A DNA stretch of 45,544 nt, taken from positions 1 through 45,544 of the forward strand of contig JAAYHJ010000005.1 in NCBI GenBank assembly GCA_012735465.1, in the 5' to 3' direction. A program made the position numbers and the translations under genes. This DNA is from Clostridiaceae bacterium (GTDB lineage Bacteria; Bacillota; Clostridia; SK-Y3). Under the pieces are notes generated by a model, which was not told where the DNA came from, did not search any database, and was given only the letters and a program-made list of their open reading frames with translations. Of this stretch, positions 35,920 through 42,488 are shown piece by piece (positions within the stretch are counted from its first letter, which is position 1; each line of letters opens with the position of its first letter).

Positions 35920-36795
35920 TCATTTTTTTATTAAATCCAGGTAATCATCTGCATCAAGTTCTTCCGGCTTTTTACCCGAAGCTGCAACTAATACGGCTTC
36001 CATTACATTGGTACCAAAGGATCTGCCCTCATATTCAGGAGTTGATGTAATCAGGAGTTTTACCCCCCTGCTTTTTAGTATTTCAACATCCTCCTGGGTA
36101 ACCGTATTGGTTATTATTATTTTACCATGCATAAACAACGGCATGTGCTTCTTAATATATAAATAGTCCCCTGCAATGATATCCGAATCCATATAATACT
36201 TTTCAAATTTTTTATTTGGACCATTGTTTTCTTGTTTCTCTCCGGTAGGGTATAATACATCAAAGGGAAACTTGGAAACAATGGGCAACAGAACATCGAC
36301 AACCCTTCTGAACATTTTTAAACTTCTGATAGGTATGGGAATACCCAGGGCAAAAATCAGATCTCCCAGAATCGTATCACATCCGCAGTGAATAAAAGCC
36401 TCTGCCATCTTATACCTGTCAATGGCACAAACCACTAAGACCTTTTTCCCTTTTAATTTGATTATATTTTCTTGTTCCAAGTATTCTACTACTCTTTTTT
36501 CCCAAGTGTTTTTAATGCCGTACCCATCAACAATAGGTGTCTTTGATGCGGCCTGTACAATTGGGATTGCCTCTTTGATCATAAACTTTTTGTTTGCTCC
36601 CGTAAGATATAAATCAATTCCTCCCAATCCAAAGGCGTCTATCTTGCCATCCAATTCCTGTATGAGCTTAATTGCTTTCTTGATATCACCATCGGTACCA
36701 ATACGTTCAATGATATATTTTTCGTTTAGTATTTCTGTTTCCACCCGGTGATTTCGCGACGAAGATCCTATACTAACGCTAACAACCTTCTTCAA
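35920..36795 (-). CDS. Conserved clostridial protein, family often labelled quinate 5-dehydrogenase
   Basis: This 291-residue cytoplasmic protein opens KKVVSVSIGSSSRNHRVETE and contains ERIGTDGDIKKAIKLI and DAFGLGGIDLYLTGANKKF. A second half begins LKGKKVLVVCAIDRYKMAEA, which may be a Rossmann-like nucleotide-binding region, although a canonical GxGxxG motif is missing. I recall this family being annotated as quinate 5-dehydrogenase, but no shikimate or quinate pathway gene lies nearby and the motifs of that enzyme class are not evident. The function should be treated as unknown. It is transcribed from just downstream of the RNase J gene. Confidence 0.55.
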   Translation of the reverse strand: MKKVVSVSIGSSSRNHRVETEILNEKYIIERIGTDGDIKKAIKLIQELDGKIDAFGLGGIDLYLTGANKKFMIKEAIPIVQAASKTPIVDGYGIKNTWEKRVVEYLEQENIIKLKGKKVLVVCAIDRYKMAEAFIHCGCDTILGDLIFALGIPIPIRSLKMFRRVVDVLLPIVSKFPFDVLYPTGEKQENNGPNKKFEKYYMDSDIIAGDYLYIKKHMPLFMHGKIIITNTVTQEDVEILKSRGVKLLITSTPEYEGRSFGTNVMEAVLVAASGKKPEELDADDYLDLIKK

Positions 36796-38720: not shown

Positions 38721-39911
38721 TCATGCCCATTGGGAACGCTTATATTCTTCCAAAACATTATTATATATGGATAAAACCTGCTTACCTATTGTACTCCAAT
38801 TGTAAAACTTTTTTATTTTCTCGAATGCATTGGCCCGAATCCTGTCACATAAGTCCTGGTGATAGAGAAGTGCTATTACACAATCGGCCAATGAATTTGG
38901 ATTGCCGGTATAGGCTTTCATCCCGTCCCGGGCATGTTCCACAATTTCGCCCAGCCCGCCCGTATCTGTAACAACCACAGGTATGCGTGCAGCCATTGCT
39001 TCCAAGGCTACTATCCCAAAGGGCTCATATAAACTTGGAAAAACAGCTATATCAGCACATCCATAATATTTCTTCAAATCCTCGTCCGAAACATACCCAG
39101 TGAAATAAAACCGATTGCCTATGCCCATCCATTCCGCCTTTGCCCTCAAATCGTTCAACAGGGGCCCTTTCCCCACAATAACAAACTTCACATCATTATA
39201 ATGGGAAAGGATTTTAGGAGCAGCATCCAGCAGTACATGAACCCCCTTTTCTTGCACCAGCCTTCCCACAAAAAAAATTATTTTCTCATTATCCCGTGCA
39301 AGGTTACGCCTGAACAAATAATCCCTTTCCATATCATTGAACTTATCTATGCTCACACCATTGGGCACAATGTTTATCTTATCCTCGGGTAACTGAAAGA
39401 TGTTGCAAATTTCATTTTTCATATACTGGCTATTGCATATCACCTTCCATGATTCATAAGTAAGCCACCATTCTATACCATTAATATATCTTTGCATGTC
39501 GGTGTGAATCCCCTGGTTCCTTCCATGTTCCGTAGCATGTATTGTGCATATGAGGGGAATCTTATAAGCATGTTTTAAAACCCTTGACGCATATGCAACA
39601 ATCCAGTCATGGGCATGGATAATATCCACCTTTCCTATATCTTTTAATAATCTTATGGAAGATTCTATAAAAGCAAAATTCAAATGCATGACCCAATCGG
39701 TAAAACTGTTTGCCCCAATATCATATGTATGTACACGGTGTACAAATACATTCTTATCCTTTTCATAGTCCTGCATTCCCGGCTCCCAGCATGTTACAAT
39801 GTGTATCTCATGTCCGTTTTTCCCTAATTCCTGCGCTAAATCGTGCACCACCCTCGAAATACCTCCCACAATTCGCGGAGGATATTCCCAAGTCAGCATT
39901 AAAACCCTCAT
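38721..39911 (-). CDS. GT4 family glycosyltransferase
   Basis: This 396-residue GT-B fold enzyme probably uses a nucleotide sugar to build glycans. The N-terminal MLTWEYPPRIVGGISRVVHD is typical of glycogen-synthase-like GT4 enzymes. The C-terminal half has FFVGRLVQEKGVHVLLDA and the catalytic-domain E-x7-E motif in YEPFGIVALEAMAARIPVVV. It lies 141 nt downstream of the nucleotidyltransferase fusion, separated by a hairpin terminator. That neighbour may make its donor sugar. The acceptor and donor are not known. Confidence 0.88.
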   Translation of the reverse strand: MRVLMLTWEYPPRIVGGISRVVHDLAQELGKNGHEIHIVTCWEPGMQDYEKDKNVFVHRVHTYDIGANSFTDWVMHLNFAFIESSIRLLKDIGKVDIIHAHDWIVAYASRVLKHAYKIPLICTIHATEHGRNQGIHTDMQRYINGIEWWLTYESWKVICNSQYMKNEICNIFQLPEDKINIVPNGVSIDKFNDMERDYLFRRNLARDNEKIIFFVGRLVQEKGVHVLLDAAPKILSHYNDVKFVIVGKGPLLNDLRAKAEWMGIGNRFYFTGYVSDEDLKKYYGCADIAVFPSLYEPFGIVALEAMAARIPVVVTDTGGLGEIVEHARDGMKAYTGNPNSLADCVIALLYHQDLCDRIRANAFEKIKKFYNWSTIGKQVLSIYNNVLEEYKRSQWA

Positions 39912-40052: not shown

Positions 40053-42488
40053 CTATCCGCTCATTCCGATTTCTTTAACACGATTGGCAAAGGTATCCGT
40101 CAGGGATTCGGCAAATTCCTGGGAATAACCTTCGCCAATTACCTTGCATACAGGCTTCTCCGAATCCGGCAATACCAATACCCATCCGCCGTCTTTGTAA
40201 ATTTTCACTCCTTCCATCAGTTCCATCTTTTCATTATAGCTTTCTTCTATTATTTTCCTTATCACCTTACCCTTTGCATTCCACGGACATTCAACTTCCT
40301 TTTTTATCATGTGAAAGGAAGGAATCTCGTCAACCAGTTGCGATAATTTTATGGAATTGCTTTTCATATAATCCATTATTTTTATAATGCTTCCCAGGGC
40401 ATCAAAATTTAATGTAAACTGATCGCTCAAAAATGTTTTTTTCTGTCCGTCAGCAACCATCTTACTCATGATTTCCAGAGGAGATGTTTTTGTTCTTATT
40501 ACTTTGCCTCCATATTTCTCAGCCATCCGGTCAATGACGCTTGGAGCAGAAATAGGCACAACCACTGTTGCGTTTTTTACCCTGCTCAGTACTATAAGTG
40601 AAGTAAGAGCAGTGAACATCTCATCATCCACAAACCGACCTTTTTCATCAATCAGCATTAGCCTCTCGCAATTACTACTTATTACAGCCCCTAAATCCGA
40701 ACCGGTTGAAAGAACTAGTTTTGAAAGGCTTTCCCTGTTTGCCATCGGTACTTCCAACATGTTTAACTCACATTCCAACTCTTCCATGAGTGAAACCATT
40801 ATTGACTTTAATGCTTTTGACGGGGCATCTATACATAATTTATAACCGAGTTTTTTGTTTTCCAGGTTATTGATGATATTTCTCAAATAATAAGGTGTAA
40901 AGTCCTTTATTTCTTTTACTTTCTTTACATCATCCGCCTCGCACCGACAAAAGTCCTCCCGTATAAATATGTTCTCAAGCTTTCTCTCCGTTGCCCTATT
41001 GATATTGATACCCCGGGAATCAATAAAGTCTATGGACAGTTTTGAATCATTATCACTAGAAGCAGTATCTAAATGTATAGCACCATCCAGACCAAAGAAG
41101 CTTGTTGCAAACCTGGTAACAGGCAGTATTTGTTCTCCAAAATCATATACTTCCGCTCCTGCCGACAATAATCCGGATATAAATGAGTTTTTTAGCATAT
41201 GAGAAGCATTTGACTGGTCACAGCTGACTCCTACCTTGGCATCCTTTTTGAGAAGTATGCCAAAGGAAGCTCCCAGGCGCGAAGCAAATTCCGGAGTAAT
41301 ATCCACATTTATCTCGCCTGCAACCCCTTTTTCACCAAACAAGGTCTTGGAATACTTGCCTCCCCATACCAGATTTACATTTACCTCTGTCCAACTTTCT
41401 ATTATTTTTGACGGCCAGATTTTTATGCTGGGCTTAATAACCACCCTTTCTTCAATAATCGTTTCGTCGCCTACTACGGATTGTTCAAATATGGAAGAGT
41501 GTTCTTTTACCTGAACCTTACTGCATAATGTGCAACCTCTTAACTGCGCACCCTTTCCTATGATATTGCCTTTCCATATTATTGACTTTTTCAGTGAAGC
41601 ATTTTCATGGATTATATTATCACTGCCAATAACAACATAGGAGGAGATTTCCGCATTTTTCTTTATGGTTGTATTTGCTCCGATTAAAACCGGTCCGTTG
41701 ATTATGGCACCTTCTTCAATATTAACACCCTTCTCAACCCATATGCCTTTATCTATCTGTTCAGCATCAATCTGTATATTTACTTTACCATCTAATATAT
41801 CAAAATGGCATTGCTGATAGGCAGCAAGATCTCCAATATCACACCAGTAATCCGAGGTTACGTATCCAAACAAAGGCTTATCCTTTTTTAACAATAACGG
41901 AAACAAATCCTTGCTGAAATCAAACATTTCTCCTTTTTCAAAATAGTCTAAAACTTCAGGCTGCAAAATATATATTCCCGTATTAACCGTATCACTAAAA
42001 ACCTCGCTCCAACTTGGTTTTTCAAGAAACCTGGTTATTCTTCCATCCGCATCGGTTACAACCACTCCATATTCCAATGGTTTATCCACTCGGGTAAGCA
42101 CCAATGTTGCCATTGCCTTCTTCTCGTCATGGTAGTCTATTACTTTTTTAAGATCGATATCTGTAAGTGCATCTCCTCTTATCACCATAAACGTATCATC
42201 TAAAAAGTCTTCTGCATTTTTAACGCTTCCTGCCGTACCAAGGGGAGTATCTTCGATAAAGTAATGGATATTTACACCAAAGCCTGATCCGTCTTCAAAA
42301 TAGTCTTGTATGATTTGTGGCATGTATTGAAGTGTTACCCCTATATCCGTAATATTATTCTTTTTTAATAAATTGATAATATGTTCCATTACCGGCTTAT
42401 TCATTACCGGAACCATTGGTTTGGGTCGGTTGCATGTAAGCGGTCTTAGTCTGGTACCCTCTCCCCCTGCCATGATGAGTGCTTTCAT
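40053..42488 (-). CDS. Sugar-1-phosphate nucleotidyltransferase fused to a degenerate phosphomannomutase domain
   Basis: This 811-residue protein has three parts. Residues 1-230 are a nucleotidyltransferase ([32 protein letters not shown]), probably making GDP-mannose or a related nucleotide sugar. Residues about 245-350 form left-handed beta-helix hexapeptide repeats. Residues about 385-811 have the phosphomannomutase fold, but its catalytic motifs are altered: TASHNP reads TASSDND (475-481), DGDADR reads SSNCER (604-609) and the phosphate-binding RPSGTE reads LPDSEK (773-778). The mutase part is therefore probably inactive and may be regulatory or structural. Fusions of this architecture are common and are often mislabelled as bifunctional. 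It precedes a GT4 gene. Confidence 0.88.

Follow-up and report, generated by a model that had tools for sequence, protein, structure and literature searches.

A predicted non-catalytic phosphohexomutase half retained in a family of nucleotidyltransferase fusions from Bacillota and Actinomycetota

The window analysed here is a 45,544-nucleotide stretch of DNA from a Clostridiaceae bacterium, and one of its genes (40053–42488, minus strand) encodes a nucleotidyltransferase fused through a beta-helix to a phosphohexomutase half whose catalytic loops have all been changed. The reading that we favour, and regard as fairly probable, is that of an active nucleotidyltransferase joined to an ancient pseudomutase module of structural or regulatory role, in which mutase chemistry was lost once, and whose product in the Bacillota is NDP-glucose. 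The loss would have preceded the separation of the sampled members of the Bacillota, Actinomycetota and Campylobacterota, after which purifying selection would have maintained the fold, no longer for catalysis but most likely to shape the oligomer or to regulate the nucleotidyltransferase. Separate, live enzymes would carry out the mutase step, and in the Bacillota NDP-glucose would be used by a neighbouring GT4 glycosyltransferase, often alongside a GH57 enzyme, for alpha-glucan. The fusion architecture itself was already known; what is new is the family-wide extent of the loss, the selection acting on the altered half and the genomic context. Reading the fusion as a two-step enzyme, as has been assumed for SCO1388 of Streptomyces coelicolor, would place a false mutase in metabolic models, and on the reading favoured here the family would be a widespread example of an enzyme fold retained for a purpose other than catalysis, linked in the Bacillota to a GT4/GH57 route to alpha-glucan.

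Architecture of the fusion protein and its altered mutase loops

The open reading frame begins with ATG and runs for 811 aa with no internal stop. Its nucleotidyltransferase domain occupies residues 2–231 (41796–42485, minus strand; Pfam PF00483, 194.5 bits) and carries a complete signature ([20 protein letters not shown]106, FLEKP and WCD217); in an alignment of 12 members of the family the elements GxGxRLxPLT..PKP, GD, EKP and WxD are all present and the key residues are invariant, and from these motifs the nucleotidyltransferase half is predicted to be active. A left-handed beta-helix of hexapeptide repeats follows at residues ~248–375 (41364–41747, minus strand), matched by PF25084 (residues 248–351) and PF00132 and seen as short strands in the AlphaFold model. 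Among the best 25 of 45 NCBIfam matches to the protein none reaches its cut-off: the top model is man1P_GTase_Rv (271.1 bits, cut-off 440), and the glgC equivalog TIGR02091 scores 120.9 bits against a cut-off of 424.9, so that the protein does not qualify as a GlgC.

The remainder of the chain, residues 382–811 (40056–41345, minus strand), is the pseudo-phosphohexomutase half, in which all four domains of the fold were recognized by a combination of PF02878, Foldseek and structural alignment. At E<=1e-3 Pfam matches mutase domain I alone (PF02878, residues 382–513), and the archaeal GlmM model spans residues 382–804 with 207 bits, below its cut-off of 439. Residues 382–807 of the AlphaFold model superpose on the phosphoglucomutase of T. 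kodakarensis (9du5) with Z 39.0 over 413 residues at 2.3 Å, and Foldseek gives a TMt of 0.84 for the mutase half against 9du5_A. The model was built from nine sequences and has a mean pLDDT of 75.7, with most of the mutase half at ~80–90, and a pTM of 0.53 with an uncertain junction between the two halves. As modelled, the protein contains the complete four-domain phosphohexomutase fold, in agreement with a sequence-only reading of this DNA which had proposed that the fold is kept over some 420 residues.

The same reading had held that the catalytic loops of the mutase half are altered. Against a reference of Thermococcales mutases and 24 stand-alone mutases, the sequences TASSDND, SSNCER and LPDSEKP of the window protein take the alignment positions of TASHNP, DGDADR and RPSGTEP in genuine mutases, and all four loops are changed. 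The phosphoserine loop TASHNP has become TASSDND (residues 475–481; 41046–41066, minus strand), the metal loop DGDxDR has become SSNCER (residues 604–609; 40662–40679, minus strand) and the phosphate loop RxSGTEP has become LPDSEKP (residues 773–779; 40152–40172, minus strand). The alteration extends to the sugar loop GExSG, which had not been listed before and is deleted in the window (region of residues 680–690; 40419–40451, minus strand), as it is deleted or replaced in the fusions as a group. For the phosphoserine loop the claim holds for the surroundings, which have changed, but not for the phosphoserine position itself, which is still serine (S477). A frameshift or a local mutation was considered as the cause and rejected, since the frame is open and relatives of the same family (71–75% identity) also lack the loops.

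Extent of the loss and selection on the mutase half

The fusion set consisted of 129 open reading frames from 153 loci, reduced to 118 distinct sequences, with the contig-end fragment L016 excluded. They came from the Bacillota (named relatives including Petroclostridium, Ruminiclostridium, Fuchsiella and Frackibacter), the Actinomycetota (with Streptomyces and Ca. Subteraquimicrobium as named relatives, the others coming from the phylum to which the latter belongs) and one Campylobacterota plasmid; Cyanobacteria lay outside the sample. For comparison, 31 stand-alone mutases were reduced to 23 by removing duplicates and those shorter than 440 aa, and L051 was added by hand to give 24, a non-random sample taken from the window's own genome and from neighbours. 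The fusion is common in the phylum of the window, where 195 of 398 sampled genomes contain a match at E<=1e-100.

The triad of metal-binding aspartates is present in all 24 stand-alone mutases and in none of the 118 fusions, of which 77 retain one of the three residues, 31 none and ten two (the first aspartate is retained in 80/118 and the loop-2 arginine in 40/118). The same absolute division (0/118 versus 24/24) is found for the loop-3 glutamate and for the loop-4 arginine. Loop 3 is deleted or replaced, with deletion in about half of the fusions; loop 4 keeps its serine in 0/118 and its threonine in 1/118, with its glutamate retained in 73/118. The phosphoserine loop retains its serine in 62/118, its histidine in one, its asparagine in seven and its proline in one, and two further arginines that are invariant in mutases are present in four and one of the 118 fusions, respectively. 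Residues that are structural invariants of the superfamily have been kept: F384 (118/118), D424 (112), Y534 (114), G600 (113), G617 (116), D696 (116) and E786 (114), a retention of 112–118 out of 118 which argues that the chemistry has been lost with the fold preserved. Taken over the 34 columns that are at least 95% conserved in stand-alone mutases, it is mostly those which we take, from general knowledge, to be catalytic or ligand-binding that have been lost in the fusions.

Two of the checks that the sequence-only reading had named were followed. Searches with regular expressions found no intact loop 1, 2 or 4 at any other position in the mutase half of the 118 fusions; loop-3-like strings occur elsewhere in four. 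Nor do loops 1, 2 or 4 occur in 18 further fusions, which include the most divergent matches, and one loop-3-like string was found among 20 further fusion open reading frames (two of them already counted). The loss is thus common to the clade, across 118 + 18 fusions, and a tree built from 41 dead and 24 live mutase sequences places all dead halves on one side of a single branch with SH-aLRT support of 100; the trees took 41 of 91 representatives, the live set was simply what was at hand, and the split is an unrooted one. By these sequence comparisons the fused half is predicted to be dead as an ordinary mutase, as had been proposed.

Some fusions depart from the common form. One of 710 aa (L171; G152:C1:284964-287051) ends after mutase domain III and has lost domain IV, and several genomes of its genus (g140) score alike, such that the loss may be fixed there. 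Members of family f19 (L177, L178, L180 and L181) are ~740 aa long, with a strongly shortened mutase half without the LPDxxEP site. A very divergent fusion (L055) lies on plasmid pSULKU01 of Sulfuricurvum kujiense between genes for phospholipase A and a patatin-like phospholipase. Two stand-alone nucleotidyltransferase/beta-helix proteins of 374–375 aa (L144 and L145) are nested among the Actinomycetota fusions in the tree, and in one genome (G551) a full fusion coexists with a copy of this type that has no dead half.

The dead mutase halves are under purifying selection. Of 115 close pairs, 47 were removed for saturated dS; over the other 68 the mutase half has a median dN/dS of 0.154, with a range of 0.03–0.40, and the nucleotidyltransferase half one of 0.096; neither the rows of the trees nor these pairs are independent of each other. 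Mean pairwise identity among the 91 representatives is 33% for the mutase half versus 61% for the nucleotidyltransferase half. Within the mutase half 30 of 436 positions are at least 90% conserved in the same representatives, and these include a family-specific stretch, CPWxxKGxVxR ([11 protein letters not shown] in the window; residues 734–744, 40257–40289, minus strand), in which W736 (95%), K739 (96%), G740 (100%) and R744 (96%) stand out. R459 is another family-specific conserved residue of this half, and the former phosphate loop has proline in 118/118 and aspartate in 114/118 fusions. Low dN/dS together with family-specific conserved residues points to a fold that has been re-used and is not rotting, whilst its faster evolution and the existence of a fusion without domain IV indicate that the module is not strictly conserved.

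Genomic neighbours, live mutases and the likely product

The next gene downstream of the fusion in the window encodes a GT4 glycosyltransferase (38721–39911, minus strand), a likely functional partner, whose best NCBIfam match is glgA_Coryne (158.5 bits, below the cut-off of 302.4). Neighbours were surveyed over a span of four genes at 58 loci (33 from Bacillota and 25 from other phyla), after loci without flanks, duplicates and overlapping-ORF picks (L095-L097, L128) had been dropped. A glycogen-synthase-like GT4 is present at 26 of the 33 Bacillota loci, a GH57 alpha-glucan branching enzyme at 19, a DUF4912 protein at 16 and a GH15 enzyme at five, and five loci have none of GT4, GH57 and GH15 within the survey; at the 25 non-Bacillota loci none of the four was found. 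The GT4 gene lies downstream of the fusion in the window and in its relatives L011 and L017, and upstream at most of the others. At L136 a single 942-aa protein, composed of GH57, its C-terminal domain and GT4, is encoded directly upstream of the fusion, and proteins of 942–955 aa that match both GH57 and GT4 seeds occupy the same position at L134, L139 and L141 (of these four loci, the domain scan covered L136). Only three genes of the window genome match the window's GT4 at E<=1e-15, so that adjacency of the fusion and a GT4 gene by chance should be rare. The fused GH57–GT4 protein beside the fusion gene connects the GT4 with alpha-glucan synthesis, and this connection makes NDP-glucose for alpha-glucan the most likely product of the nucleotidyltransferase in the Bacillota, judged from its neighbours. 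GDP-mannose is less likely, as the nearest NCBIfam model is far below its cut-off and the Bacillota neighbours favour alpha-glucan.

The pair in the window itself may make something else, since a search of its genome found no GH57 branching enzyme and the genome holds a separate set comprising a classical GlgC (571.6 bits), a GlgA-like match and a GH13-type match. The glgA of this genome (G000:C78:10667-12065) is matched in two frames (model positions 2–72 and 65–474) and is either frameshifted or mis-assembled. Product and pathway may also differ between phyla, given the absence of GT4 and GH57 from all 25 non-Bacillota loci; at nine of these the gene for a CDP-alcohol phosphatidyltransferase lies upstream of the fusion, either next to it or with one gene between. 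In archaeal glycogen metabolism the role of GT4 is described as needing clarification in the available part of a review (PMC11046441). Elsewhere in the window, a 291-aa protein (35920–36795, minus strand) that neither Pfam nor NCBIfam matches at E<=1e-3 adjoins RNase J, as it also does at L011 and L017.

Three intact mutases with all four loops are encoded on other contigs of the window genome, and a stand-alone 349-aa nucleotidyltransferase related to the N-terminal half of the fusion (L002; G000:C86) lies a few kb from an intact PMM/PGM (L052) on the same contig. At 15 of the 29 best-scoring Actinomycetota loci (L065-L093) the gene next to the fusion encodes a live mutase, on the same strand and separated from it by -1 to 96 bases; such a neighbour would be expected of a fused half that performs no chemistry. 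Around 29 Bacillota loci, flanks of 1.5 kb contained no live mutase.

The role of the retained fold and comparison with known systems

Two readings deny the module a non-catalytic role of its own. That the fusion is a truly bifunctional enzyme, with a live mutase built on unusual loops, could draw on the serine kept in the window and in just over half of the fusions, but we give it next to no credence: the metal triad, the phosphate-binding Arg, Ser and Thr and the sugar-binding Glu and Ser have been lost together, no intact loop 1, 2 or 4 occurs elsewhere in the half, and the intact mutase site by which a bifunctional GMP/PMM would be recognized is absent. That the half is a functionless relic on its way out would fit its faster evolution, the loss of domain IV in one fusion, the trimming of one family to ~740 aa and the nesting of stand-alone nucleotidyltransferases inside the Actinomycetota fusions; it is nevertheless very improbable, because dN/dS does not exceed 0.40 in any of the 68 measured pairs, the new motifs are near-invariant and the fusion is spread over at least two phyla.

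Two further readings assign it a specific task, and both are doubtful. The sequence-only reading had suggested an allosteric sensor, in which the dead cleft binds a hexose phosphate and signals to the nucleotidyltransferase. In the GMPPA/GMPPB pair a non-catalytic homologous partner regulates a sugar nucleotidyltransferase, and the cleft loops of the fusions bear new conserved residues, both of which would suit a sensor. A further precedent is herring PGM5, which lacks mutase activity and binds glucose-1-phosphate, according to the available part of the source (PMC7761743). Unlike PGM5, however, the fusions have lost nearly all of the invariant residues that contact sugar and phosphate; about half lack the sugar loop and one lineage lacks domain IV. 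The former phosphate loop, neutral in 23/24 stand-alone mutases, is negative in 116/118 fusions (net -1 to -3), and with the PGM5-type contacts missing it is unlikely, on sequence grounds, that the dead half binds hexose phosphate in the old manner, so that the suggestion of a sugar-phosphate sensor fared poorly; a different ligand may be sensed instead. About equally doubtful is a docking and control platform, by which the dead mutase would pair with a live mutase (in Actinomycetota) or with GT4/GH57 (in Bacillota) and join it to the nucleotidyltransferase, coupling the supply and use of sugar-1-phosphate. The adjacent live mutase genes of Actinomycetota, the GT4 genes that keep company with Bacillota fusions in two arrangements, and the protein complexes formed by mutases of the superfamily (CdaA-GlmM, for example, from PDB titles) speak for docking, but gene adjacency is not contact and the 29 Bacillota loci have no live mutase in their flanks. 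Were it true, a dead enzyme fold would underlie a sugar-activation assembly, and the phosphate site would have given way to a new acidic LPDxxEP site. We return to the broader reading of a pseudomutase module with a structural or regulatory role, which the selection and the new conserved residues suggest.

The literature searched, subscription papers and databases excluded, yielded no paper on the dead half of the fusions. Known fusions of the MPG1 type share the nucleotidyltransferase and mutase architecture, among them SCO1388, of which the available part of the source says that it 'appears to be a bifunctional enzyme' and that its share in the synthesis of GDP-mannose is small (PMC5982138). 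The window protein differs from SCO1388 in belonging to the Bacillota branch that is linked to GT4 and GH57 genes. The earlier warning that automatic labels as a bifunctional enzyme would be wrong applies to SCO1388, so described, but not to the relatives in the plasmid collection (those from Streptomyces cover 91–99% of the window query at 33–36% identity), which are labelled 'sugar phosphate nucleotidyltransferase'; the worry over mislabelling is also lessened by the failure of any NCBIfam model among the best 25 of 45 matches to reach its cut-off. We take CDD cd05805 to be the family of MPG1-type fusions, with members noted as lacking metal-binding and catalytic residues. One paper, in its available part, mentions cd05805 only to exclude it as one of the groups whose reactions are distinct (PMC9426568).

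Beyond the fusions, the solved structure that best matches the N-terminal half is that of the UTP-glucose-1-phosphate uridylyltransferase tlr0611 (8x7s; E 1.8e-64), which has no mutase half. The GMPPA/GMPPB complex, a GDP-mannose pyrophosphorylase, likewise combines a nucleotidyltransferase bearing a left-handed beta-helix with a non-catalytic homologous module, but there the dead partner is itself a nucleotidyltransferase, whereas in the window fusion it is a mutase in the same chain. A parallel to the mutase half is PGM5 (aciculin) of vertebrates (6y8x), a four-domain mutase fold without activity, as is predicted for the window half; PGM5 keeps its substrate binding, as far as the available part of the source goes (PMC7761743), and has no fused nucleotidyltransferase, and its activity was probably lost separately.
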